This document shows, in pieces, positions 11,295-23,784 of a stretch of DNA of 64,000 bases (positions are counted from its first letter, which is position 1; each line of letters begins with the position of its first letter). The stretch is from Planctomycetota bacterium (GTDB lineage: Bacteria; Planctomycetota; Phycisphaerae; UBA1845). The stretch is taken from assembly GCA_024280855.1 (NCBI GenBank), contig JAJRPG010000034.1, positions 1 through 64,000 on the forward strand, given 5' to 3'. Below the pieces are notes generated by a model. The model was not told the origin of the DNA and searched no databases. It saw only the letters and a program-made list of their open reading frames with translations. The translations under genes were made by a program, and so were the position numbers.

Positions 11295-12293
11295 ATGTCA
11301 TTACCTCCAGAAAGATTTTCACAGCTTCGATGGCTGCACAATGCGGTTTGTGTTGTGGCTTTGATCGGCGCAGCCTGCGCGATTTTCGCGGGTATTATTG
11401 GTATTGACGCCACTTCTTCGACTTGGCTCTTTGTGGCTGGCGGGGCCATGCTCTTGGTGGTGCTGACCTTAGCGACGCTTATGCCACTGCTCCTCAAGAT
11501 TGAGGCTACGCTGACGCGCAACTTGCATCAGCTTCATTCGCTTGAAGAAAGCTATAATAAGCAGACTACTTTCCTTAATGCCATAGCAGATAACACACGT
11601 ATTTCAGACGCGGCTAAGGGGTTGGCGCAAAGAGACCAGGAGATAGATGGTCTGCGAGCGGCTATTCGAGGTGAAATTCAGTCGCGCAGATGGGAATCTG
11701 CGCTTAATTTAGTTAGTGAGATGGAGCAGCGATTTGGTTTTCGTGACGAAGCCGAGGCACTGCGTGAAGAATTAGACGAAGCCCGGTCGGCAGCGGTTGT
11801 GATGAAGCTGGACCGGATTGTCGAGCATATTGAAAAACTGTTAACTGACCACGATTGGGACCAGGCTTCCGCAGAAATTGATCGTATGGGGGCAGCACTA
11901 CCGGGGAATCCTAAAACTCAGACGTTGCGTGATAGAATGATTTCTTTGAAAGATAAACATAAAACTGTACTTCGGCAGGAATGGGATGAAGCCGTGCGGC
12001 GTAGCGATACGGACCACGCCATCGAAGTACTGCGTGAGCTGGATTCGTACTTGTCCACAAGCGAAGTTCAGGAACTGCAAGCCTCTGCCCGTGATGTTTT
12101 CAAGGAAAAATTGCTACAGCTTGGTGTTCAGTTCCGATTTGCGGTGACAGAAAAACGTTGGCAGGATGCGTTGAACATCGGGCTGAATCTCGTCAGCGAG
12201 TTTCCCAACGCTCGCATGGCTAATGAGGTTCGTGAAGCGCTCGATACGCTCCGAGAACGTGCCCAGCAGCAGTCAGACCATCAGCCTGCTTAG
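11295..12293 (+). CDS. Membrane-anchored helical-repeat/coiled-coil protein
   Basis: A 332-residue protein with two N-terminal TM helices (about 13-36 and 43-66). They are followed by an entirely helical, charged region with coiled-coil stretches (EEALREELDEAR, KLDRIVEHIEKLL) and TPR-like helix pairs of the type W-x-x-A-L-N (RRWESALNLV, DWDQASAEI, RWQDALNIGLNLV). The repeats would lie in the cytoplasm and serve as a binding platform. It is not assigned to a named family. It stands alone after a gap from the small membrane protein and is followed by a hairpin-rich gap. Confidence 0.78.
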   Translation: MSLPPERFSQLRWLHNAVCVVALIGAACAIFAGIIGIDATSSTWLFVAGGAMLLVVLTLATLMPLLLKIEATLTRNLHQLHSLEESYNKQTTFLNAIADNTRISDAAKGLAQRDQEIDGLRAAIRGEIQSRRWESALNLVSEMEQRFGFRDEAEALREELDEARSAAVVMKLDRIVEHIEKLLTDHDWDQASAEIDRMGAALPGNPKTQTLRDRMISLKDKHKTVLRQEWDEAVRRSDTDHAIEVLRELDSYLSTSEVQELQASARDVFKEKLLQLGVQFRFAVTEKRWQDALNIGLNLVSEFPNARMANEVREALDTLRERAQQQSDHQPA

Positions 12294-12671
12294 CGGTTCG
12301 CTCCGTATAGTCATCCTCCATTTATTCCTTAATTAGACTTTGCGCCGGTTTAATCAACCGGAGTTATCAAATTATCTGCAAAGCACGGGTAAACAGTAGC
12401 TTACCCATGCCACCCAGCCTTAATTACGCTTCTTGCGTCAAGGTGTATTTCTCTAGTAATAAGCGATTAGTTATCGGACTTTTAGGTGTATGTAGCCACC
12501 ATTGTGTGAGTCCGTGAGGTAACGATGCGGAATGTTTAATTAAGAAGCTTAGTTATCGCGTAAGGTCATTCAGATATGGTGTTTAGGTTCCGATAGTCCT
12601 GTTGATTCTGGCGTTTTCCTGGGTTAGGTGAAGCAGCCATTATTGTGGTGTTCTTCTATCGTGTGAATGTC
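12294..12671 (+). promoter_or_regulatory. Hairpin-rich leader upstream of the diguanylate cyclase
   Basis: A 378-base gap without a credible gene. Within 12338-12443 there are consecutive stems: CTTTGC (12338-12343) with GCAAAG (12378-12383) enclosing CCGGTT/AACCGG (12345-12361); GGGTAA (12387-12392) with TTACCC (12401-12406); and CCTT..ACGC-loop-GCGT..AAGG (12418-12443). The density of stems suggests a structured RNA leader or cis-regulatory element. It does not match the c-di-GMP-I riboswitch motifs I can recall, so no class is assigned. Confidence 0.35.
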
Positions 12672-14084
12672 ATGTCTGAGCAGCAACATACAACTGATGC
12701 TTTATCTGGCGAGGTATCCTGGCTACGTCGTCTAGGTGATGTGCTGGTTAGTTTTCAAGTGAAATCAACCACGCTTGTGGTGTTTTTGTGTATTGCGGTG
12801 GCTGGGGCTTCGTCGTCATTTTTGGTTCGTTCCAGCATGTCGGCGCTGGGGCAGCAGCAGGATGAGGCGCTGGTTGGTTTGTCGTCGCTCATGGCTGATG
12901 CTGCTTCGCCGATGATGGCGTCTTCTGTTGATAGGCAGGCGTTGGCGGAATTGGCTAAGCGAACGGCAGATGGTGCGCCGCTGGTTTATGTGGTCATCCA
13001 CGATACTGAAGGTCATGTGATAGCGTCTGCTTATCAAGGCGCGGCTGTTGAACTTCGTGAAGAGATAGAATCGCGAGAGCTTGATAAAACGGTGTTGGGA
13101 ACGCCGTCTTCCTGGCGCAAGAAAAGTGAGCGACTTTCATTTCGTGAAATTGTATATCCAATCAACACGAGCCATGGAGGCATTCAATCGGACGATTCCA
13201 CGAATTTGTTGACCGGGTATATCCGGGCTGCGATGGCTCCGAACACTTATCGAAAAACACTGGCTAGTAGTATCGATATGCTGATTGGTGTCGGTATTAT
13301 TGCTTTAGTATTTTCGATTCCGCTGGGCTTTTTATTGGTTCGCAGGATCGCATCTCCTTTGCATGAGTTGGGGACGACGATGTTGCAGTTTTCTCAAGGT
13401 GATCTTCAAGTGCGTAGCCCCGAAGGTCGTCGGGATGAAATTGGGCAACTTGCGCGGGCTTTTAATCGCATGGCAGACCAGCATCAACAGGCGCATGAAG
13501 GCGTGCTTCGTTTGAATGCCGAGTTGGAGCAGCGGGTACTACAGCGGACCGAGCAGTTGCGTGATTTATCTACGCGTGACCCACTAACGGGTTTGTATAA
13601 CCGCCGCCATTTGGGAGAAGCGCTACGGCAGGCATTCGTGGAAGCGCAGCGATATGAGCGTAATCTGGCGTGTGTCATGATTGATCTGGATGATTTTAAG
13701 AATGTCAACGATCTTCAGGGGCATCGTGTTGGCGATCAGGTATTGGTGCTTGCTGCGGAGACTATTAAGAGTCAGTTACGATCGTCAGATATACCGGCTC
13801 GGCCTGGTGGTGACGAGTTTGTGATATTGTTGCCGCAGACATCTGCCTATCGGGCGGCGACGATCGCTCGTCGAATTATTAGCGCGTTTTGTGAAAGTGT
13901 TAAGGCTGAGATTCCCGAAGTATCTGTGGGGATGAGCGCGGGCATTTCTGATGTTGAGACGCTCAAGCCTGCTGTGCCTGAGATATTGGTTGATGAGGCT
14001 GACCGAGCGCTGTACCAGGCTAAGGCGAATGGTAAACAGCGTGTTTGTACCCCTGACCACTTGCCTGACCCCCTTTCGACATGA
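12672..14084 (+). CDS. Membrane diguanylate cyclase (sensor-HAMP-GGDEF)
   Basis: Makes c-di-GMP from two GTP. From the ATG at 12672: TM1 around residues 29-51, a periplasmic sensor of ~150 residues, TM2 near 204-226 (GVGIIALVFSIPLGFLLV), a HAMP domain (RRIASPLHELGTTMLQ and DEIGQLARAFNRM), a short coiled coil, and a GGDEF domain opening with TRDPLTGLYNRRHL. The active site is intact (GGDEF), and RSSD sits five residues upstream, matching the RxxD inhibitory I-site, so product inhibition is expected. No EAL domain. An in-frame GTG at 12645 is the longest start, but ATG 12672 is preferred. The hairpin-rich leader upstream may regulate it. Confidence 0.93.
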   Translation: MSEQQHTTDALSGEVSWLRRLGDVLVSFQVKSTTLVVFLCIAVAGASSSFLVRSSMSALGQQQDEALVGLSSLMADAASPMMASSVDRQALAELAKRTADGAPLVYVVIHDTEGHVIASAYQGAAVELREEIESRELDKTVLGTPSSWRKKSERLSFREIVYPINTSHGGIQSDDSTNLLTGYIRAAMAPNTYRKTLASSIDMLIGVGIIALVFSIPLGFLLVRRIASPLHELGTTMLQFSQGDLQVRSPEGRRDEIGQLARAFNRMADQHQQAHEGVLRLNAELEQRVLQRTEQLRDLSTRDPLTGLYNRRHLGEALRQAFVEAQRYERNLACVMIDLDDFKNVNDLQGHRVGDQVLVLAAETIKSQLRSSDIPARPGGDEFVILLPQTSAYRAATIARRIISAFCESVKAEIPEVSVGMSAGISDVETLKPAVPEILVDEADRALYQAKANGKQRVCTPDHLPDPLST

Positions 14085-14226: not shown

Positions 14227-14661
14227 ATGGCTTTTTTGTTAGGAGTGATGTTCATGCTAGTCGCTGCGGGACAATTTATTGGTGGCAAGATGGTGACGGC
14301 GATATTCGTGGTGGCTGGTGCTGGTGCGGTGATTTGGTTTTGGAAGCATCCAGAGCATTTAGAGACGATATGGCTGACCGTCAAGTATGTGCTGGCGTGG
14401 ATGGGGTGCGTGCTTGCGCTTCCGTGGGCTACATTTTTCGTGACTCGATGGGCGATAGCGAGGGATTCTAATGCGGTAGCGGGGGCGATGCTCGCGGGTT
14501 ATTCGATCATAGATTTTATCGTGGCTTGGTGGTTGATTGGGTCATTGGCTGGGATTGGTTCGTTGTCGTGGGCGGTGCTGCTTCTTGGTATACTTTCGGC
14601 TGCGGTTTATAATTTGAAGGTTTGTGAACATATTGCTGAGCGGGCTGAGAATGGGTTGTAG
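14227..14661 (+). CDS. Multi-pass membrane protein, first gene of the ESCRT-like cluster
   Basis: About 144 residues with four hydrophobic segments: MAFLLGVMFMLVAAGQFI, TAIFVVAGAGAVIWFW, a helix around VLAWMGCVLALPWATFF, and the C-terminal pair around SIIDFIVAWWLIG and WAVLLLGILSAAVYNL. No family recognised. A TTG at 14215 is an alternative start; the ATG at 14227 is preferred. It is separated from the kinase by ~90 bases that hold two REP-like repeats, so co-transcription with the downstream cluster is likely but not certain. Confidence 0.65.
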   Translation: MAFLLGVMFMLVAAGQFIGGKMVTAIFVVAGAGAVIWFWKHPEHLETIWLTVKYVLAWMGCVLALPWATFFVTRWAIARDSNAVAGAMLAGYSIIDFIVAWWLIGSLAGIGSLSWAVLLLGILSAAVYNLKVCEHIAERAENGL

Positions 14662-14665
14662 TATG

Positions 14666-14727
14666 CCCGCAGGCTTGCGCCAGCGGCTCTGATTTGTGGT
14701 TTGTCCGCAGCTTGCGCTTGCGGCTCT
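14666..14727. repeat. Two tandem REP-like GC-rich palindromic units
   Basis: Units at 14666-14690 and 14705-14727 both begin with CCGCAG and end in GCGGCTCT, with the internal GCTTGCGC shared. They belong to the family that recurs at 21965, 23884, 33471-33564, 59378 and 59438. Confidence 0.6.
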
Positions 14728-14754
14728 GGTTGACCGATCATATGAGGCTTTTTG

Positions 14755-15813
14755 ATGTCTATGTTGAATAAAGGTGACCGTATACAAAACTATCTGCTGG
14801 AGGAGTGCTTAGGCGTTGGCAGCTTCGGGGAAGTTTGGCGTGGCCGACATCATATGTTTGGTGATTTGGTTGCGATCAAGGTGCCGACTGACCCGCAGTA
14901 TGTGCGTAATTTGCAGCGTGAAGGTGTGGCGGTTCATGGCTTGAAACACGCCAACATCGTGCGGGCGATTGATCTTGATCCGTATGGTGATCCGCCATAT
15001 TTCATTATGGAATATATTGATGGCCCGTCGCTAAGGCAGGTGATTGACCATTATCAAAAGAACATTCCTATATCAACAGTCATGGTGATTATGCAGGGGG
15101 TGTTGCAGGGATTGACGGCTGCTCATGGCGACGGGTTGGTTCATCGAGACGTTAAGCCGGCGAATATATTGTTGAATGTCGCGCTGGCGTCACTGGCTGA
15201 GGTTAGCGTTTCTTCGGTGAAGGTGACGGACTTTGGACTGGGGCAGGCTGTGGGGATGACGACGCAGTCCATTATGCAGAGTGGTAGTTTGCAAGGTAGC
15301 GAAGGGCGTAGTGTAGCTGGGACGTTGGCTTATATGTCTCCAGAGCAAAAGGAAGGTCGTGCGGTTGATGCGCGTAGTGATCTTTATAGCTGTGGTATTG
15401 TGCTGTTTGAATTGCTGACTGGCGAGCGACCTGTAGGTGGTGAAAAGCCAAGTGAGCTTAGGCCTGAGGTGCCGGCGCATTTGGATGGTGTTTTTGAAAA
15501 ATGTTATACTCGGCGTGATGCACGATTTGCGAGTGCGACGGAAATGTTGGCTGCGATGACGGAGCGGCCAGTATTGGATGAGGTTGTGCCTCGCTTGACA
15601 CCGCCACCTGTGCCCGCGCATGTGCATTCTAGTGCGAAGCTTAAATGTGGGCAGTGTCAGCGTGTTATCAAGGCGGACGATCAGTTTTGCATTCATTGCG
15701 GGCAGCAAATAGCAGCGGCGGTGCCGAAGTGTCATGCTTGTCAAAGCCTGGTGCGGGCGAACGATCGGTTTTGTATTCATTGCGGCGTAGATTTAAGTGT
15801 GTTGGTGGAGTGA
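14755..15813 (+). CDS. Ser/Thr protein kinase with two C-terminal zinc ribbons
   Basis: A PknB-type cytoplasmic kinase. The glycine loop is LGVGSFGEV (19-27), the ATP-anchoring lysine is K42 in VAIK, the catalytic loop is HRDVKPAN (D132), the metal site is DFG (159-161), and GTLAYMSPEQ marks the P+1 loop. The kinase domain ends near residue 270. Two zinc ribbons follow a proline linker: CGQC...CIHCG and CHAC...CIHCG. No TM segment, so it is soluble. The ATG at 14755 has GAGG seven bases upstream. The downstream gene, 15 bases away, also ends in a zinc ribbon. Placement at the head of the ESCRT-like genes suggests that it may control their assembly; this is inference. Confidence 0.93.
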   Translation: MSMLNKGDRIQNYLLEECLGVGSFGEVWRGRHHMFGDLVAIKVPTDPQYVRNLQREGVAVHGLKHANIVRAIDLDPYGDPPYFIMEYIDGPSLRQVIDHYQKNIPISTVMVIMQGVLQGLTAAHGDGLVHRDVKPANILLNVALASLAEVSVSSVKVTDFGLGQAVGMTTQSIMQSGSLQGSEGRSVAGTLAYMSPEQKEGRAVDARSDLYSCGIVLFELLTGERPVGGEKPSELRPEVPAHLDGVFEKCYTRRDARFASATEMLAAMTERPVLDEVVPRLTPPPVPAHVHSSAKLKCGQCQRVIKADDQFCIHCGQQIAAAVPKCHACQSLVRANDRFCIHCGVDLSVLVE

Positions 15814-15828
15814 TAGAGGATTGATGCC

Positions 15829-16086
15829 ATGCCCGGCGAGCCGTTTATTTTTATAGCTGTACTACTGCTTGGGCTAGCGGCATTCTTTTTTAGTGCGATC
15901 TATGTTGTCGTTCGCGTGGTCGGTGCGGTATTTAGCAGCCTTGGCCGATTGTTGGGAGGATCGGGGGTACGACGACCGATAGACAGAGAAGCCCCTGTCG
16001 GTATCGCTTGCCCGCGTGAAGGATGTCGAAATGTTGAATATCGTCACGCGCGTTTTTGTAGCCAATGTGGTGCGCGATTGTTGTGA
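15829..16086 (+). CDS. Small membrane protein with C-terminal zinc ribbon
   Basis: 85 residues. A TM segment at about 7-40 (FIFIAVLLLGLAAFFFSAIY) is followed by a basic linker and a four-Cys zinc ribbon (CPREGC...CSQCG). AGAGGA sits upstream of the ATG. It lies 15 bases after the kinase, which also ends in zinc ribbons, so the two probably interact or bind the same partner. No named family. Its gene position between the kinase and the first ESCRT-III-like gene suggests a membrane tether for that system. Confidence 0.75.
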   Translation: MPGEPFIFIAVLLLGLAAFFFSAIYVVVRVVGAVFSSLGRLLGGSGVRRPIDREAPVGIACPREGCRNVEYRHARFCSQCGARLL

Positions 16087-16119
16087 TAAGTTATTGATGG
16101 GAATTGGTGAAAATTTCTG

Positions 16120-17583
16120 ATGAGTGTGAACGCCGAAAAAGCGATGCATCTGGAAGCTGATTTCCTGGCGGGAGTGGAAAGTAATCTTCACGCGGCTGAG
16201 GGCGGTTTGCTGCGTGGTTCGATCTGGCAGACAGCGAGGTTGGATGATGAGGATCGGTTGCGTGCGCTGCTCGCGGAGAATCGTACTTACGACCGTGAGA
16301 GATTAAAGACTTTGCCAGCGAATCGGCGGGTGGCGCTGTATGGTTTTGAGAAGCGATTTATTTTTGGTCGTCGTCGAACGGGGGTAGCTATTGCTTCGAC
16401 GATGTCGCCGCTGTCGGCGCTGGTTGGAAAGCCTGAGGAGGCTGGACCTGCGATTGGGCTTGGTGAATTACACGATCATGTTCATAAGCTGGTTGGTGAG
16501 GCGAACATGCCTCATGTGATTGGTGTGTGTAGTACGACGGGGTTCACGCCGCAGGCTCGTGACGCGAAGTTTAGTATTCCCAAGGTTTCGGTGGTGTTGG
16601 TAGAGCCTGACGGGCAGGGCGGTTGGCGGGTACATGCTGCGGGTGATGCGGTGGACGATAGGCTGGTGAAACTTTTCGATCCGGAGAAGGAAAGCGATAA
16701 GGTGGATCGGGCACGCGAGATGATTGAGTCCTACAGTGCCGAGTTGGTGACGGGGAGCCTTTCGGCTTCAACCGTTGCCAAAGAGGTCAACTTGCCGGAA
16801 CATTTGGTGCGTAAGAGTTTTCGTCAGTTGGCTGATAGCGATGCGGAGTTGAAGATTGTCGATCGAGATGGGCAATTGCTGATGTATCGCGGTGCGGCTG
16901 GTTCTGGATCGGAGAAGAAATCGATGAATATGATCGACAAAATTAAGCAACTCTTTTCCGGTGAAGGAGACGAAGCCGAGAAGATAAATCTATTGGCTGA
17001 GCGTCGGGCGACGCTGACGCAGCGGCGCGATCGTTTCTATGAAGATATTGCCAAGCTAGAGAAAAAAGAAGCAGGGCTGCTCGAAGAAGGTAAGCAGGCG
17101 AGGTCAGCTGTGCCTCGTAGACGTATTGCGGCGCAGATGGCGCAGCTTCGTAAAGACATCGCCCGGCAAAATACGACCGGTGCGATGCTTAATCAGCAGA
17201 TTAATATTATCAGCACGGATATTCATAACCTGACGTTGATTCAGCAGGGTGATTTAGCTCAGCTTCCCGATACGGAGGAGCTGACGACTCATGCGGTTGA
17301 AGCGGAGGAGATGTTGGAATCGCTTCGTGCGGATAGTGAGATGGTGGGAAGTTTGGAAGCGGGCATTGAGCAGACTTTGATGAGTGATGAGGAGCAGGCT
17401 ATTCTCAAAGAGTTTGAGAGTCATGATGCGGGGGCTGAGACGGTGGAGACTCCGCCTTCAGTGGTCTCGCCGCCAGAAAAATCACCGCGCGTGGCTAATG
17501 ACTCTTTGCCGACATCGGCACGCCCTGAGACTGACGAGCCTGAGTCACCTGATTCGCGTAAAGCTGATCCTGAACCTTCGTAA
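16120..17583 (+). CDS. Winged-helix plus ESCRT-III-like coiled-coil fusion protein
   Basis: 487 residues in three parts. Residues ~1-190 form a globular alpha/beta domain I do not recognise (LYGFEKRFIFGRRRTGV, then KVSVVLVEPDGQGGWRVH). Residues ~196-262 look like a winged helix (SLSASTVAKEVNLPEHLVRK, then the wing KIVDRDGQLLMYRG). Residues ~270-435 form a long basic helical hairpin (ERRATLTQRRDRFYEDIAKL; VPRRRIAAQMAQLRKDIARQ), a break, then acidic helices ending in EEQAILKEFE: the ESCRT-III/Snf7 layout. The last ~50 residues are Pro/Ser/Glu-rich and disordered. A winged helix ahead of an ESCRT-III core is the arrangement of eukaryotic CHMP7. Two further ESCRT-III-like genes and a MIT-AAA gene follow. 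The fold assignment rests on pattern, not on a profile search. Confidence 0.75.
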   Translation: MSVNAEKAMHLEADFLAGVESNLHAAEGGLLRGSIWQTARLDDEDRLRALLAENRTYDRERLKTLPANRRVALYGFEKRFIFGRRRTGVAIASTMSPLSALVGKPEEAGPAIGLGELHDHVHKLVGEANMPHVIGVCSTTGFTPQARDAKFSIPKVSVVLVEPDGQGGWRVHAAGDAVDDRLVKLFDPEKESDKVDRAREMIESYSAELVTGSLSASTVAKEVNLPEHLVRKSFRQLADSDAELKIVDRDGQLLMYRGAAGSGSEKKSMNMIDKIKQLFSGEGDEAEKINLLAERRATLTQRRDRFYEDIAKLEKKEAGLLEEGKQARSAVPRRRIAAQMAQLRKDIARQNTTGAMLNQQINIISTDIHNLTLIQQGDLAQLPDTEELTTHAVEAEEMLESLRADSEMVGSLEAGIEQTLMSDEEQAILKEFESHDAGAETVETPPSVVSPPEKSPRVANDSLPTSARPETDEPESPDSRKADPEPS

Positions 17584-17607
17584 TTTGTTTGCAGTTGAAG
17601 GGCTATT

Positions 17608-18261
17608 ATGAGCGGAATATTCGCTAAGTATTTTTCTGGTAAGAACAGTTTACCGCAGTCGCTGTTTGATTGGCTAACGAAGCGCAAGAAGTCGTTGTCG
17701 CAGATGACACGGTCGGAGCTTCGTCGTCAGGAACTGTTGCTGGAGAAAGATCGCACGCAACTGCTGAATAAAGTAACTAAGTTAGCTAAGGATAAGCAAG
17801 AGATTTTCGAGCGTGGTGCGCAGGAAAAAACGCCGGAAGTGCGACGGATGTTAGCTCAGGAATTTGAGCTGCGTACTTCTGAGCAATTGATGCTAGCTAG
17901 GCAACTTAATATTCGTAGTAAAGAGATGATGACGGTTTCTCGGCTTCGGATGTTGCGAGAGAATGCGGACCGTATGGGACAGGCCGGGAAGTTGGGGCTG
18001 ATTACGCCGGGCGATTTGCTGCGATTAGGTAAGCTTATTGAAGCGGACTCGGTGAAGTCGGAAGTATATCAGGAACGCCTTGATGATATTTTGTCGCTTG
18101 GCGCAGAAGTTGATGAGGGTGCGGCTGGATTGGGTGATGCGGGCGAAACGGTGCTTGGCGTTTGGGATAAGATGGATGCTGGGGCGATTACTGACACGGC
18201 TGAGGCTTTTGAAGAGGCGGACCGTAGCGTGCGCGATCGCCAAGCTGCGCCGGAGTCATAA
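17608..18261 (+). CDS. ESCRT-III-like (Snf7/PspA superfamily) coiled-coil protein
   Basis: 217 residues, within the 200-240 usual for ESCRT-III proteins. A short amphipathic N-terminus (MSGIFAKYFSGKNSL) could insert in membranes as in Snf7 and PspA. A long helical hairpin follows (about 35-125: LRRQELLLEKDRTQLLNKV, then PEVRRMLAQEFELRTSEQLM). Separate shorter acidic helices follow (LLRLGKLIEAD near 137-147, YQERLDDILSLGAEVDEG, AEAFEEADRS). This charge layout, basic hairpin then acidic tail, is that of an autoinhibited ESCRT-III subunit. It starts 24 bases after the winged-helix fusion gene and is followed by pspC. Alternative: a generic coiled-coil scaffold. Confidence 0.72.
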   Translation: MSGIFAKYFSGKNSLPQSLFDWLTKRKKSLSQMTRSELRRQELLLEKDRTQLLNKVTKLAKDKQEIFERGAQEKTPEVRRMLAQEFELRTSEQLMLARQLNIRSKEMMTVSRLRMLRENADRMGQAGKLGLITPGDLLRLGKLIEADSVKSEVYQERLDDILSLGAEVDEGAAGLGDAGETVLGVWDKMDAGAITDTAEAFEEADRSVRDRQAAPES

Positions 18262-18297
18262 TTTTTTTGGGCGTACCGTTTGAGAAGGGATATTTTT

Positions 18298-18504
18298 TTG
18301 AGCAGTTATACCAGACGACTGAGAAGAAGTGTTCATGACCGCTGGATGGCAGGGATATGCGGCGGGCTTGGAGAATATTTTGGTGTGGACCCGACAGTGG
18401 TGCGCGTGTGTTATGTAATGCTGTCAATACTCTCGGCTGGATTTCCGGGGACGTTGGTTTACTTGTTATTGTGGTTGCTGATTCCTGAACGAGAGTATTA
18501 CTAA
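18298..18504 (+). CDS. pspC: PspC-domain membrane protein
   Basis: 68 residues, almost entirely a PspC domain: RRLRRSVHDRWMAGICGGLG, then EYFGVDPTVVRV and a hydrophobic helix VMLSILSAGFPGTLVYLLLW ending LLIPE. PspC sits in the inner membrane and, in proteobacteria, works with PspA, itself a member of the ESCRT-III superfamily. The start is chosen as TTG 18298 because AAGGGA (18285-18290) is spaced correctly; a TTG at 18280 gives six more residues. It lies between two ESCRT-III-like genes, so it is a plausible membrane partner for them. Confidence 0.9.
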   Translation: MSSYTRRLRRSVHDRWMAGICGGLGEYFGVDPTVVRVCYVMLSILSAGFPGTLVYLLLWLLIPEREYY

Positions 18505-18555
18505 AGTGTATTCCGTTAATTAGCAACTTGAAACTCAACTTTTTGGAACGAATCG

Positions 18556-19167
18556 ATGGGATTATTCAAATCAGATGAAGAGCGGCGGATTGAGCGCGAT
18601 ATTAAAATTCGTCAGGGGATTCGGCGGATTGAGAAATCGATTCGTGAGCAGGGAAAATTTCAAGACGAGTTTGTTAAGAACGCACAGCAGGCGCGGAAGA
18701 TTGGCGATACGCAGCAGTATAATTTTATTCGCAACTCATTGAAGAAGACGGCTACGATTCGCAAGATGCTTGAACGGCAATTGCTGACGGTGAAAAATGC
18801 GTTGGTGATTAAGCGGCAAGCGGAGGCCTCGGCTGATTTTTCTCAGGCGATGGGGATGATGGCTGCGGAGATTAGCAACTTGTTTGGCGCGACGGACCTG
18901 GTCAAAACGCAGATGGATTGGGAGAAGGCCATGGTGCAATCGCAGTCTATGGAAGAGCGCATGAATATGTTCCTGGACAGCGTTGAAGACATTGCTTCTC
19001 AAGATGCTGAGATGAGCGCGTCGGATGATGTGATGAGTGATGCTGATGTTGATCGGTTGATAGACGCCGAAGCTGAGGCGGAACACAAAAAGGAATTGGA
19101 TAAGTTAGCCGGGCTTAGGGCGGAGCTTCATGCGCTCAAAAACGAATCCGGTGAAAAGCAAAAATAG
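18556..19167 (+). CDS. ESCRT-III-like protein with CHMP2/Vps2-like layout and MIM1-like tail
   Basis: 203 residues. It begins MGLFKSDEERRIERD, reminiscent of the MSLF..-type N-terminus of CHMP2/Vps2. A basic helical hairpin spans about 10-90 (IKIRQGIRRIEKSIREQGKF; NFIRNSLKKTATIRKMLERQ). A Met/Ala-rich helix follows (DFSQAMGMMAAEISNLF, 94-110), then a Met-rich acidic helix (DWEKAMVQSQSMEERMNMF) and an acidic linker. The C-terminal helix contains LAGLRAELHALK (184-195), whose Leu spacing and final Lys match the MIT-interacting motif MIM1 at four of six positions. An ATPase with a MIT-like domain is encoded two genes downstream. Homology is inferred from layout and motif, not from a search. Confidence 0.8.
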   Translation: MGLFKSDEERRIERDIKIRQGIRRIEKSIREQGKFQDEFVKNAQQARKIGDTQQYNFIRNSLKKTATIRKMLERQLLTVKNALVIKRQAEASADFSQAMGMMAAEISNLFGATDLVKTQMDWEKAMVQSQSMEERMNMFLDSVEDIASQDAEMSASDDVMSDADVDRLIDAEAEAEHKKELDKLAGLRAELHALKNESGEKQK

Positions 19168-19215
19168 CGAGCGTGAAGGGAATCTGATTATTAGCTTAAT
19201 TGAAGAGGAAACGAA

Positions 19216-20649
19216 ATGAAGCTAGTGCATATCTTATTGTGGGTTGCTGTGGGCGCAAGCCTAACTTTTGCTCAACCTGTACTGATCGATCCACCTGATT
19301 TTTCTGACTCATTCCCGACCGGTTCGCCAGACCCGGCTGCGATTCATCCTGGTAGCGGTTGTTTTTGGCTGGCTAGCGGGGAGATGGTTTCTGGCGATGT
19401 GGATTGGATACAAATTCTAATCCCCTTCGATACTAGCGAAGTGATTGTTGATGTGGACATTACGTCTGGTAGTGGCAGCAGTAATTTATTTGTGTCGTCG
19501 TCCGGCGGGTCGAGCGGTTCTAATAATGATGATGGCAATAGTGCGTTCGATCAGAATTGCGGTGGCAGTGGCCTGGCGACTGATTCTGTGGTGAGGTTAG
19601 GCACGACGCCGGTTGGCGCGGTTTTTGGGATTGGAATATCTGGTGGGAGTGATGGCGGTTTTAATGGCAGCCATAGTGAAACATTTAGCTATGATGTATA
19701 CGTTTATGCTATGGGAACGCCTCCGGGTTGCACGCTGGATTCGCAATGTGACGATGGCGTCGCCTGTACGATGGACGTTTGCGATTTGACGAGCGGTGAG
19801 TGCATAGTGACACCTGATGACACTAAATGTGATGATCGTGTGGGTTGTACTGATGACTTTTGTGATTCGACAAGTGGCTGTCAGTTTGTAGTGAACGATG
19901 CGCTTTGCGATGACTTGGTTGGTTGCACAGTGGATTCTTGCGATGCGGTGAACGATTGTCAACATGAAGCTGACGATACGGCGTGTGATGATGGTGTTGG
20001 ATGTACCGTTGATATTTGTGATGCGATTAACGATTGTCAGAATCAAACTGATGACTCGTCATGTGATAATGGTTTGTTCTGCGATGGGCAGGAATTTTGT
20101 CATGTTGTGAATGATTGCCAGGACGGGCCTAGTCCATGTTTTCCGGGTGATGCTTGCGACGAGACGAATGGTTGTCAGCCAGTGGTCGGATTGCCTGTTG
20201 AGATTGACATTTATCCTGGCAGTTGTCCGAATCGTCTGAATCGTTTTCGACGGGGTTTCTTTCGTGTCGCACTTACTGGCACGTCTGGTGTATCATCTGG
20301 GGATGTAGATCGATCATCGCTACGGCTTAGCAGGGCTGATGGTGTTGGGCAATCTCTCGCTCCTTTTACCGGAGGTTTTGGACCTAGGTTTATTGAGAGC
20401 GATGTGGTCATGTTTGCTGGTGGACAGGCGTGTGTGTGTCACGCAGCCATCGCGGACGGCATGTTGGATTTGATCATTCCGTTTGATTTAGCGGCTGCTC
20501 GTGAGGCGTTTTCGATTGATGCCATGACACCGACACGAACGATCGAATTGGTGCTCACTGGCCAAACTTTTGCAGGTGATAATTTCGCGGCATCGGATTG
20601 TGTGCGTGTTTTTCCACCCTCAAAACGAAGAAGTATTCGTCTGCGATAG
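19216..20649 (+). CDS. Secreted protein with tandem Cys-rich (CTDC-like) repeats
   Basis: 477 residues. A signal peptide (MKLVHILLWVAVGASLTFAQ) is followed by a beta-rich domain with Ser/Gly/Asn-rich loops (~20-170). At least six tandem repeats of about 22-24 residues follow, of the type CDDGVGCTVDICD-x-x-N-DCQ (~177-310), each carrying Cys at fixed spacing. A C-terminal beta domain completes it. The repeat type occurs in surface proteins of many bacteria with large secretomes and in Dictyostelium. GAGGAAA precedes the ATG. It is co-directional with the ESCRT-like genes and lies between the CHMP2-like gene and the MIT-AAA gene, although it acts outside the cytoplasm. Confidence 0.8.
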   Translation: MKLVHILLWVAVGASLTFAQPVLIDPPDFSDSFPTGSPDPAAIHPGSGCFWLASGEMVSGDVDWIQILIPFDTSEVIVDVDITSGSGSSNLFVSSSGGSSGSNNDDGNSAFDQNCGGSGLATDSVVRLGTTPVGAVFGIGISGGSDGGFNGSHSETFSYDVYVYAMGTPPGCTLDSQCDDGVACTMDVCDLTSGECIVTPDDTKCDDRVGCTDDFCDSTSGCQFVVNDALCDDLVGCTVDSCDAVNDCQHEADDTACDDGVGCTVDICDAINDCQNQTDDSSCDNGLFCDGQEFCHVVNDCQDGPSPCFPGDACDETNGCQPVVGLPVEIDIYPGSCPNRLNRFRRGFFRVALTGTSGVSSGDVDRSSLRLSRADGVGQSLAPFTGGFGPRFIESDVVMFAGGQACVCHAAIADGMLDLIIPFDLAAAREAFSIDAMTPTRTIELVLTGQTFAGDNFAASDCVRVFPPSKRRSIRLR

Positions 20650-20677
20650 GTGTTTTTGTCTTAGATCGGTTGTGGAA

Positions 20678-20706
20678 CTGGATTCCTGCCTGCGCGGGAA
20701 TGACGG
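20678..20706. repeat. dRS3-like short inverted repeat
   Basis: GGATTCCTGCCTGCGCGGGAA with flanking TGACGG resembles the widespread bacterial element with ATTCCC..GGGAAT arms and a CTGCGC centre. It is a single copy in this window, in the ~117-base gap between the secreted Cys-rich protein and the MIT-AAA gene. Confidence 0.45.
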
Positions 20707-20766
20707 ATAGCAGCGATGGCCCTTGTTTTATAGTTTTTCTTTGTGTTGTGTTGGCTGTAATTAGTT

Positions 20767-21885
20767 ATGACTGTTTCATTTACAACTTTTGATCGCCTGA
20801 AGCGCAAGGGAATTACTTCGTATAAAAGCGGAGATTTTCTGGCGGCTAAGACCTATTTGGTTGATGCGGCTGAATGTATGATAGAGCTTGCGGAATCGGC
20901 TAAGTCGCCGGAGACGCAGCGTCAGCATGAGGAACTAGCTGCGGAGTTGATAGACCTGGCTAAGGATTGTGACGCGCGGCATGATGCGGTGCGCACGGGG
21001 CGGGTTAAACAATCTGAACAAGAAGATGACTCAGGGGCAGATGCTTCGGATTGGTTGGTGAGCGAGAAGCCAAGCATCGGTTTTGAGGACATCGCAGGGC
21101 TGGAGAATGTTAAGGACGAAATTCGTCTGAAGATGATTTATCCTTTTAGTCACCCAGAATTGGCTAAGCGGTATGGCATTGCGACGGGTGGGGGTGTACT
21201 TCTTTTTGGCCCGCCTGGCACGGGTAAGACCATGATAGCCAAGGCGATTGCCCATGAGATTGATGCGGCGTTTTATGTCGTTAGTGCGGCTCAGATGTTA
21301 AGTAAATGGGTCGGCGAGGCGGAGCAAAACATTCGTAAATTATTCGTCGCGGCTAAGGCTCAGCCGAGGTCCGTAATCTTTTTAGATGAAGCCGAAGCGC
21401 TGGTGCCCAGGCGTAAACAGGATTCGTCGTCTGTGATGCAGCGGGTGGTTCCGCAGATTCTTCAGGAGTTAGAAGGGTTTGAACGAGGCGGTGATAATGC
21501 GCTGCTGTTTGTGGGGGCGACCAATAAGCCTTGGATGCTGGATGAAGCCGTGCTGCGTCCTGGTCGTTTTGATGCGAAAATTTATGTGGGATTGCCAGAT
21601 GCCCCCGCGCGATTTCGTATGCTGGAGATTTATCTAGGTAATAAACCGTTGGCTGATGACGTTGAATTTGGTCCGTTGTGTGATCGACTTGAAGGTTATA
21701 GCGGGGCGGATATTAGAAACATCGCCCAGCAAGCGGCGCATCGTCCGTTTATGGAAGCCGTCGGCGGTAAGGAGCCAAGGCCAATTAATTGGGCGGACCT
21801 CCTAGCTGTGCTTGAGCAAACGAAGCCTTCTGTACATCCGGCTGACCTCGTGCGGTATGACAAGTTTGCACAGGATGGGACGTAA
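20767..21885 (+). CDS. Vps4-like MIT-AAA ATPase
   Basis: 372 residues. Residues ~1-75 form a three-helix MIT-like domain (FDRLKRKGITSYKSGDFLAA; then ETQRQHEELAAELIDLAKDC). After an acidic linker the AAA core opens with IGFEDIAGLENVKDEIR (~104-120) as in Vps4. Walker A is GPPGTGKT (148-155), the pore loop is KWVGEAE (180-186), matching the KWxGESE signature of the Vps4/katanin/spastin clade, Walker B is VIFLDEAEA (203-211), sensor 1 is GATN (250-253), and RPGRFD holds the arginine fingers. It ends with the TKPSVxxxDL..F helix usual in this clade. Predicted role: binding the tails of ESCRT-III-like subunits through MIT and disassembling the polymer. FtsH and archaeal Cdc48 share the core, but not the MIT domain. 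Confidence 0.92.
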   Translation: MTVSFTTFDRLKRKGITSYKSGDFLAAKTYLVDAAECMIELAESAKSPETQRQHEELAAELIDLAKDCDARHDAVRTGRVKQSEQEDDSGADASDWLVSEKPSIGFEDIAGLENVKDEIRLKMIYPFSHPELAKRYGIATGGGVLLFGPPGTGKTMIAKAIAHEIDAAFYVVSAAQMLSKWVGEAEQNIRKLFVAAKAQPRSVIFLDEAEALVPRRKQDSSSVMQRVVPQILQELEGFERGGDNALLFVGATNKPWMLDEAVLRPGRFDAKIYVGLPDAPARFRMLEIYLGNKPLADDVEFGPLCDRLEGYSGADIRNIAQQAAHRPFMEAVGGKEPRPINWADLLAVLEQTKPSVHPADLVRYDKFAQDGT

Positions 21886-21964
21886 GGATTTTCTCCGCTC
21901 GCGCAACTATCATTTGAATAGGTGCGTGTTCGTTTGAGTTGCGTGTCGCCAATAAATTTTGCGG

Positions 21965-21990
21965 CCGCGCAAGCTGAAGCATGCGGCTCG
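21965..21990. repeat. REP-like palindromic unit
   Basis: CCGCGCAAGCTGAAGCATGC followed by GGCTCG, near-identical to the unit at 59438-59463 and to the reverse complement of the units at 23884 and 59378. It lies in the gap between the MIT-AAA gene and the SPFH-like gene. Confidence 0.6.
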
Positions 21991-22011
21991 TAGTTCATGG
22001 AAGTTATGATG

Positions 22012-23784
22012 ATGTCAGGTAAGTTCGATCCACAACATTTTCTACAGCAAGCTGACCACGTTGCGTTAAGCGTCGCGGCTGAGGAGTTATTTGGTTTTCT
22101 ACGCCGTTCGTATGATCTTCCGCCATCATGGGCGGCGCTATTGACGCGAGATACTGGGGATCAGGTTTTGGTTCAGCCTGGCGGTAAAATCGAGGCGACG
22201 GACCTGGATGGCTTACTCTTGGTTCGAGTGACGCCGACTGAAGTTTCCTTTGAAGAATGTGTAACGACTAAAGATCATTTTGAGTGTCAGGCATCTGTCA
22301 GATTCAGTCTTGGTGTGATTCCCGACCGTAACGAGTTAGCCTCCTTTCAGAAATCGTTATTGGGTAGTCATCGCGTGATTAAGGTTAACGATGTGGCGAG
22401 ATATCTTCAGGCATCGATACGGCAGTCGCTTAGCGATATCGCTACAGGGCAAAAGGCTGATGCGTTGATCGGGGGGCGAAGTTCGCATCTAGTGTTACAG
22501 AACTTGCAAGATGCCATTAAGCAGCCTTGTTTTCTATCAGGGTTGCAATTGATGGGTGAGCCTCGGGTGCGGTGGGAATCTCAATCGCACCGTAAATTAC
22601 AACAAGTGCGTCAACACGGCGCGTTGGTGCAGGCGCAGCAGGAAATCAATCGAAAGCTAGGCGATGCGCGGCGTGATGCTCAGGAGTCGCGGATTGAACA
22701 GCTTGGGGACATGTTGTCGCGTATGAAGGAAATCGCGGCGATTTCGCCTGAGGCAGAGTTGCCTGAATTGCTTCGTGCTTTTTCAGATAAGCAGCGTGGT
22801 GAAATTTATGAGGCTGTGTTCGCAAAGCCTGATACGCATCAGCTTACGCGATGGATAGTCGTAGCCTGTGGTGAAGACTTATTGTTTTTCGATCCGCGCG
22901 AGACCCAGGCTAAGCCGCGACAGGTTTCTGTTAGTGGTGATGCGGGGTTGGTTCGATCCATTCAGACGGCGATTGATAAGCGCGGGGTTTCATTACTGCT
23001 CGGCGCGGCGACGGGTGTTTATGGTTTACCTGTTGAAGCGAGCGAACCTGAAACCATTTGGCTAGTGCCCGATGCGCCTGTGGTTCGTGGCGGTTTTAAT
23101 GCGGTAGCTAGGTCTGCGGATCGTATTTTCGCTAGTCATTCGGAGCTTGGTATCTGGTATTGGTCTGCGCAAGATGTTAGCGACGCAGTTCAGTTGTTTT
23201 CTTCTGTGACACATGACGCTAAAGCGGTGCGAGGTATTACGCATGTAGCGGACAAGATGTACTGCGGCCTAGATGCGAAAATCTTATGTTGGCCCAGTCA
23301 ATCATCGGCTGATGAGCCGAGCGAAATTTTTATGGGGAGTGAATCCACGATCACTTCGATTTGCCCGAGTGGTCGGGGGTTATACGCCGGTAACGCGGAT
23401 GGCGATATTTTGTATTGGCCCGGCGGTGTGACTGAGAAGCCTCAAACGATTCATCGCGGCATGAATAGGCCTGCGGAATCTCTTTGGCTGACATCCGCGC
23501 ACGGGGTTGATCGGTTGGTGTTTACCGATACGTCATTAGCAGTCCATGCGTTGGTCGTGGGTGATAGTTTTGTCTGCCGTTATGAAGCGGGTGGCCAAAC
23601 GCTTCGACGGGTGGAGGTCGCCGGTGATTTGATCGTAGCTACGACGGAGTTGCGTGATCGTTTGATTTGTTGGTCGGCGTCAGACTCGTCCAGGCCTGCA
23701 GCCACGATTGCGGTTGGTGCATTGCGAGGTCGAAGCATTCAGGACGCCTGTTTGGTGTCTGAGTCCCCGCCGGTTTCGGCGTAG
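22012..23784 (+). CDS. SPFH-like plus coiled-coil plus beta-propeller protein
   Basis: About 590 residues. Counted from the longest frame (ATG 21997), residues ~60-190 resemble an SPFH/band-7 domain (LLLVRVTPTEVSFEECVTTK, ASVRFSLGVI, VARYLQASIRQSLSDIATGQ). A coiled coil follows at about 195-250 (SHRKLQQVRQHGALVQAQQE). The remainder (~285-590) consists of repeated four-strand blades with W near blade ends (IWYWSAQDVSDA, ILCWPSQSS, ILYWPGG, LICWSASDS), i.e. a seven- or eight-bladed propeller. No TM helix is evident. GGAAG at 21999-22003 favours ATG 22009 or 22012 over ATG 21997. It follows the MIT-AAA gene and may act as a membrane-associated scaffold for the cluster; SPFH assignment is by pattern only. 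Confidence 0.72.
   Translation: MSGKFDPQHFLQQADHVALSVAAEELFGFLRRSYDLPPSWAALLTRDTGDQVLVQPGGKIEATDLDGLLLVRVTPTEVSFEECVTTKDHFECQASVRFSLGVIPDRNELASFQKSLLGSHRVIKVNDVARYLQASIRQSLSDIATGQKADALIGGRSSHLVLQNLQDAIKQPCFLSGLQLMGEPRVRWESQSHRKLQQVRQHGALVQAQQEINRKLGDARRDAQESRIEQLGDMLSRMKEIAAISPEAELPELLRAFSDKQRGEIYEAVFAKPDTHQLTRWIVVACGEDLLFFDPRETQAKPRQVSVSGDAGLVRSIQTAIDKRGVSLLLGAATGVYGLPVEASEPETIWLVPDAPVVRGGFNAVARSADRIFASHSELGIWYWSAQDVSDAVQLFSSVTHDAKAVRGITHVADKMYCGLDAKILCWPSQSSADEPSEIFMGSESTITSICPSGRGLYAGNADGDILYWPGGVTEKPQTIHRGMNRPAESLWLTSAHGVDRLVFTDTSLAVHALVVGDSFVCRYEAGGQTLRRVEVAGDLIVATTELRDRLICWSASDSSRPAATIAVGALRGRSIQDACLVSESPPVSA

Follow-up and report, generated by a model that had tools for sequence, protein, structure and literature searches.

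The endosomal sorting complexes required for transport (ESCRT) machine has been reported as limited to archaea and eukaryotes. In archaea, the Main-clade set comprises Vps4 and ESCRT-III, a kinase and a phosphatase, together with a large protein that combines helical, coiled-coil, globular and winged-helix parts (Makarova et al. 2024, PMC10936438). Kinases are also carried in archaeal ESCRT loci, and other such loci encode zinc-ribbon, SPFH and beta-propeller proteins (PMC10936438), kinds of domain that are indicated in the DNA analysed here as well. Ravi et al. (2024, PMC11237479) noted that some bacteria have Vps4-like or other AAA ATPases, either alongside PspA/Snf7 members or where snf7 is missing. 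This earlier notice tempers any claim to novelty; what is described there is Vps4-like transfers with snf7 displaced, rather than an operon of several subunits with homology to an archaeal ESCRT locus. Planctomycetes are mentioned 0 times in that text, and no report of ESCRT in the Planctomycetota was found in PubMed Central, where most subscription papers and preprints fall outside coverage. The present analysis concerns a gene cluster at positions 14,227 to 23,784 of a 64,000-nucleotide stretch (the window) of contig JAJRPG010000034.1, from a planctomycete genome of 4.56 Mb. This cluster is probably a bacterial ESCRT-type membrane-remodelling operon.

The genes are referred to as p1, the kinase, p4 to p7, the ATPase and p9 (Table 1). 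As read from the sequence, the operon would encode three ESCRT-III subunits, named E1 (the C-terminal half of p4), E2 (p5) and E3 (p6), a scaffold and winged-helix region fused to one of them, an ATPase of MIT-AAA layout (family AAA1), a kinase, a multi-transmembrane protein and a protein of SPFH/propeller-like type, all of them kept together as a unit. Membrane remodelling with ATP-driven turnover of a polymer is the best reading of its putative function.

Searches of Pfam and the Protein Data Bank (PDB) with the single p6 sequence gave nothing useful, so family profiles were needed. In the divergent p6 family (A5), Pfam Snf7 is matched by 20 of 24 members, with a best E-value of 2.7e-6, and every other family recurs in 3 or fewer of the 24. 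These Snf7 matches extend to at least position 157 of the 171-position model (for example, positions 5-157), and one member reaches 27.2 bits against a cut-off of 27.3. When the PDB was searched at profile level with the p6 family, 8 of the 9 sequences listed up to an E-value of 10 were ESCRT-III proteins (CHMP3, 0.0028; Snf7, 0.0068; CHMP2A, 0.2). The AlphaFold2 model of p6 (pLDDT 79.6) has helices at residues 7-49, 52-110, 115-153 and 162-202, an arrangement in keeping with solved ESCRT-III structures. In 17 family members the p6 tail has a segment, following a variable linker, in which L187, R188, E190 and K195 are invariant and L191 is nearly so. The amphipathic pattern of this tail is kept in 114 of 129 p6 homologs against a mean of 16 after shuffling, the sequences not being independent of each other.

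An initial annotation, made from the window sequence, had described three proteins of ESCRT-III-like layout, and profile alignment has now borne this out by linking them to each other. An hhalign comparison of p4 with p5 gives a probability of 90. With deeper profiles, E2 against E1 has an E-value of 5e-15 and E3 against E2 has one of 8e-6. The early comparisons, made with shallow alignments, linked p6 to neither p5 nor p4, and the deeper profiles at default settings give no direct link from p6 to the p4 C-half. Judged from these profiles, the p4 C-half, p5 and p6 are homologous to one another, and the p4 C-half and p5 are probably, like p6, subunits of the ESCRT-III family.

A tblastn search of plasmids found an ATPase, a Vps4, on the Thermococcus peptonophilus plasmid NZ_CP014751.1 (98% of the query aligned). 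Its neighbours there encode a 607-residue protein, two proteins of about 200 residues, a kinase, a PP2C phosphatase and a 188-residue protein, and this locus matches the published description of the Main-clade ESCRT. The planctomycete p6 profile finds Tp_6894 with 66.6 bits, and Tp_6894 itself matches Snf7 (4.2e-4). Tp_1919 and Tp_2515 are found by the E2 profile (39.8 and 39.5 bits; shuffled maxima 4.6 and 6.6), and Tp_2515 also by the E1 profile (35.1 bits; shuffled maximum 7.5). The profile of the p4 N-half (A4) matches Tp_85 with 35.4 bits across its positions 12-202, where shuffled sequences give at most 3.1; from its fit to the published layout, Tp_85 is taken to be arCOG09748. The window-shuffled and reversed controls for the matches to this locus never exceed 7.5 bits.

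The planctomycete operon and the Main-clade archaeal loci are alike in that three ESCRT-III-type proteins, a large scaffold, a Vps4-family or Vps4-like ATPase and a Ser/Thr kinase stand in one locus, with the homologs of the subunits and of the scaffold found one by one. They differ in that the window's host is a bacterium, p4 fuses the scaffold to an ESCRT-III subunit, the ATPase is not a Vps4 ortholog, SPFH/propeller and multi-transmembrane proteins are added, and a PP2C phosphatase is not seen among the operon genes. Since Main-clade Vps4 was not detected in the window's order, the operon should be seen as a variant of the Main-clade kind and not as a member of it.

The T. peptonophilus plasmid (L224) carries what looks like a complete archaeal ESCRT locus, kinase and PP2C included, and such a plasmid is a plausible vehicle for inter-domain transfer. 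Another ESCRT-like plasmid locus (L226) is present on the Halarchaeum plasmid NZ_CP054709.1, with a kinase, a PP2C phosphatase, two hypothetical proteins of about 210 residues and a Vps4-type ATPase.

The ATPase of the window matches Pfam AAA (3.6e-39) and Vps4_C (3.3e-6, with 27.4 bits over a cut-off of 21.3). Its Walker motifs are intact, its pore loop is KWVGEAE, and it has a Vps4-like GATNKPW motif and KPSV tail. The AlphaFold2 model of the N-terminus (pLDDT 84) is a three-helix domain at residues 5-78. The top 7 Foldseek matches to this domain are all MIT domains, and by VIA the katanin MIT (Z 12.7, root mean square deviation (rmsd) 1.4, 77 aligned) and the Vps4 MIT (Z 12.6, rmsd 1.6, 80 aligned) are about equally close. 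The modelled fold thus suggests that the N-terminus of the ATPase is a MIT domain. Like the eukaryotic and Asgard ESCRT, the operon has Snf7-type subunits, a MIT-AAA ATPase with Vps4_C, and a conserved C-terminal tail at the MIT-interacting motif (MIM) position; unlike them, it stands in a window in which no ESCRT-I/II or ubiquitin system was identified, strict MIM1 is rare, and RPGRFD is the arginine-finger region of the ATPase. The pairing of ESCRT-III with a MIT-AAA ATPase is also that of the Cdv system (CdvB/CdvC) of TACK archaea. In this case the differences are that CdvC clusters away from AAA1, that the window has extra kinase and SPFH/propeller genes, and that no CdvA was seen in it, no examination aimed at CdvA having been made.

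Several observations weigh against an ESCRT-type operon. Taken singly, p6 of the window matches no Pfam family, and a direct match to Snf7 is lacking for both E1 and E2. The ten best Foldseek matches of the p6 model all belong to the ESCRT-III superfamily, yet their E-values are 0.18 and up and non-significant; VIA places Snf7 first (Z 11.6, rmsd 2.7, 110 aligned) but within the background of helical proteins. Sequence is therefore stronger evidence than structure for p6. When the tails were scored against the MIM1 consensus, a strict MIM1 was present in only 2 of the 129 p6 homologs, the relatives L207 and L213 (EDKVSSRLDSLR, EGRMGSRLDALR). The finger of the ATPase is the Cdc48-type RPGRFD, unlike that of Vps4. 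In sequence searches its N-terminal domain gives TPR matches no less often than MIT matches, both of them weak, and its core is sister to planctomycete and Streptomyces TPR-AAA ATPases (97.6/96). In addition, nearly every host record is a metagenome-assembled genome.

Such points could be accommodated if the locus were a TPR-AAA ATPase operon with lineage-specific coiled coils, its likeness to ESCRT-III being a coincidence of helical hairpins; coiled coils do yield spurious matches, and both the position of the AAA1 core and the TPR matches of the N-terminal domain are in keeping with this. It is nevertheless a very improbable explanation. The real matches score 35-67 bits, with no shuffled or reversed control above 7.5, no Pfam family other than Snf7 recurs (20 of 24, against at most 3), and MIT rather than TPR leads the fold search. 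In other planctomycetes, moreover, the same cassette includes a Vps4 of archaeal type.

The sister grouping of AAA1 and the TPR-AAA ATPases is recovered (96.3/92) in a second tree, built under another model and without the spastin, katanin and Msp1 sequences that the first includes. Both trees contain few references. The grouping of AAA1 with Vps4, CdvC and katanin against Cdc48 depends on sampling, with 93.5/98 in the tree with more references and 64.6/68 in the one that leaves those three out. Orthology of the window ATPase to Vps4 is rejected by the trees, in which its core falls with the TPR-AAA ATPases. As far as its sequence goes, the ATPase is Vps4-like in layout and not a Vps4. The nearest family to its core (L218-L222) is a separate planctomycete TPR-AAA ATPase family that is also found on Streptomyces plasmids, and these are possibly the bacterial Vps4-like ATPases mentioned by Ravi et al.

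Many other planctomycetes have a second ATPase, AAA2, for which both trees recover a sister relationship with archaeal Main-clade Vps4 (99.8/100 and 99.9/100). Two sets of genomes were compared, one of 60 relatives of the window genome, within the window's order, and one of 392 genomes sampled over the phylum Planctomycetota. AAA2 is present in 42 of the 56 p6-bearing genomes of the phylum sample and was not detected in the 60 relatives. Two ATPases, one of them an archaeal-type Vps4, were probably part of the ancestral set in planctomycetes, and the window's order keeps only the other one.

Among the 60 relatives, p6 is present in 50. The ATPase accompanies it in 49 of these (the exception is G024) and is in none of the 10 relatives without p6. 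In 20 loci compared, the genes stand as p1-kinase-p4-p5-p6-ATPase-p9, an arrangement found in 8 families of the window's order; in two genomes the operon is divided into p1 to p6 and ATPase-p9. The recurrence of the order in 8 families, and the co-occurrence of p6 and the ATPase among the 60 relatives, indicate that the grouping of these genes is not due to chance. Across the phylum, p6 was found in 56 of the 392 genomes, where the usual cassette is rearranged and comprises p4N, E1, E2, often AAA2, p6, AAA1, p9, p1 and the kinase. In loci L201-L203 the p4N and E1 sequences are separate genes, and p4 of the window is therefore a fusion of the scaffold with E1. AAA1 and/or AAA2 are in 54 of the 56 p6 genomes, against 5 ATPase-bearing genomes among those without p6 (Fisher p 7e-58, for genomes that are phylogenetically non-independent). 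Records with chromosome titles also carry p6 (L102, CP070718.1; L141, CP030884.1), which argues against contamination. A viral origin was rejected, no relatives having been found among viral contigs. The sensitive profile searches covered the Planctomycetota, as the only bacterial phylum, and the archaeal locus.

The initial annotation had proposed a polymer-plus-disassembly machine in a bacterium, with a Vps4-type MIT-AAA ATPase. The machine is supported by homology, fold, the conservation of the operon and the match to the archaeal locus; for the ATPase, the AAA and Vps4_C matches, the KWVGEAE loop and the MIT-like fold agree with the proposal, whereas the RPGRFD finger and the sister relationship to the TPR-AAA ATPases do not. 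The checks that it had suggested for the coiled-coil proteins, the ATPase N-terminus and the neighbourhood gave Snf7 for the p6 family with no direct match for E1 and E2, a MIT-like fold where sequence is ambiguous with TPR, and a gene neighbourhood conserved across the 8 families and rearranged across the phylum. The phylogeny placed the AAA core outside the Vps4 clade, with a sampling-dependent position relative to Cdc48. The initial annotation had named as contrary outcomes the lack of any ESCRT-III profile match or fold, a TPR-like N-terminus, and an AAA core grouped with FtsH/Cdc48 and no conserved neighbourhood; none of these was found in full. The tie to planctomycete endomembranes and the control by the kinase that it also proposed are conjectural.

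The PspA/Vipp1 proteins of the bacterial phage shock protein (PSP) system belong to the same superfamily as ESCRT-III (PMC8281802), with one helical-hairpin fold. The coiled-coil proteins might accordingly be PspA/Vipp1 relatives that form stress coats, with the ATPase an unrelated helper. A profile search detected no PspA in the window's own genome, which would allow the operon to take its place. Against this, the p6 family matches Snf7, PspA_IM30 is not among the best 25 Pfam families shown for E1, E2 and E3, and three distinct subunits with a dedicated MIT-AAA ATPase match an archaeal ESCRT locus and not the PSP system. The PspC protein that the initial annotation had placed at the start of the cluster has also fallen away: p1 is a multi-transmembrane protein, and neither it nor eight homologs match PspC at E-values of 10 or less. 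A phage-shock-type system is thus highly unlikely.

None of the 392 planctomycetes passed the FtsZ cut-off, FtsZ was not detected in the window genome, and the division of FtsZ-less planctomycetes has been described as unsolved (PMC5147048). It is conceivable that these FtsZ-less bacteria use the ESCRT set to divide, as the Sulfolobales use Cdv. This is unlikely, as p6 is in only 56 of the 392 genomes and nearly all of the relatives without p6 are also without FtsZ; the kinase and the SPFH/propeller partners fit sorting or repair better. Since most FtsZ-less planctomycetes have no ESCRT set, division is not the default reading, and ESCRT as a general planctomycete divisome was rejected for its patchy distribution. 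As PspA was not detected in the window genome, a role in membrane repair or sorting is no less likely than one in division. Six planctomycete genomes (G216, G268, G320, G173, G100 and G204) have diverged proteins of the tubulin/FtsZ superfamily that score below the FtsZ cut-off.

For an ESCRT-type operon the following mechanism can be proposed. The ESCRT-III subunits would attach to the membrane on its cytoplasmic side, by way of their basic hairpins and M-x-L-F N-termini, at a site marked by the SPFH/propeller and transmembrane proteins. The scaffold half of p4 may nucleate or recruit them, and the three would co-polymerise on the membrane, with the kinase gating assembly. The MIT domain of the ATPase would grip the C-terminal amphipathic tail of p6, and a hexameric AAA ring could then extract subunits through the KW pore loop, driven by ATP, so that remodelling of the polymer bends, cuts or repairs the membrane. 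A larger claim is that this is a complete working bacterial ESCRT, native to a phylum without canonical FtsZ, serving cytokinesis or internal membrane sorting and old enough to have one- and two-ATPase forms; taken as a whole this is rather doubtful. A conserved bacterial operon that corresponds to an archaeal ESCRT locus would extend the ESCRT machine to the third domain, in a phylum best known for internal membranes and FtsZ-less division. It would open the bacterial use of ATP-driven ESCRT-III turnover to test, and add material on the movement of ESCRT between domains or its origin before them.

Table 1. Features of the ESCRT-type operon in the window
Feature	Position	Strand	Basis or remark
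p1, small multi-transmembrane membrane protein	14227-14661	+	In-frame ATG at 14227; without Pfam family; position conserved
Ser/Thr protein kinase with C-terminal double zinc ribbon	14752-15813	+	Pfam Pkinase 2.1e-38, DZR 2.6e-9; kept in operon
p4 N-half, scaffold domain and probable winged helix	16120-16923	+	Homologous to Tp_85, large protein of archaeal ESCRT locus
p4 C-half (E1), ESCRT-III-like	16924-17583	+	Homologous to p5; profile matches Tp_2515
p5 (E2), ESCRT-III-like	17608-18261	+	Profile matches Tp_1919 and Tp_2515; hhalign link to E3
p6 (E3), ESCRT-III (Snf7-type), most conserved member	18556-19167	+	Family matches to Snf7, PDB profiles and Tp_6894
p6 C-terminal amphipathic segment LRAELHALK, proposed MIT-interacting motif	19114-19140	+	Residue conservation in 17 family members
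p7, secreted Cys-rich protein	19216-20649	+	Window's genus only
AAA ATPase	20767-21885	+	Pfam AAA, Vps4_C
ATPase N-terminal MIT domain (predicted), helices at residues 5-20, 24-44, 48-78	20767-21003	+	AlphaFold2, Foldseek, VIA
ATPase AAA core and Vps4_C-type C-terminus	21055-21885	+	Pfam AAA 3.6e-39, Vps4_C 27.4 bits; motifs; trees
p9, SPFH-like N-terminal half and probable beta-propeller	21997-23784	+	Band_7 in one homolog, weak propeller matches

The list of open reading frames confirms, gene for gene, the co-directional run that had been described. Single-protein searches of this cluster gave Pfam families for no more than the kinase, the ATPase and the repeats of p7, and the Pkinase and DZR matches agree with the kinase and zinc ribbon that had been read from the sequence. 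The SPFH-like propeller identity of p9 is weakly indicated, by a Band_7 match at 4e-4 in 1 of 9 homologs and by the weak propeller matches. In most loci p9 adjoins the ATPase on its downstream side. The counterpart of p1 in other planctomycetes is a longer membrane protein beside ATPase/propeller genes. The p7 protein has three Dicty_CTDC-type repeats and is inserted between p6 and the ATPase; it was rejected as a component of the system, this insertion being limited to the window's genus. Positions 11295-14084, upstream of the operon, encode a membrane protein of coiled-coil/TPR-like type and another protein that is HAMP-GGDEF-like, both conserved as neighbours of the operon within the family.

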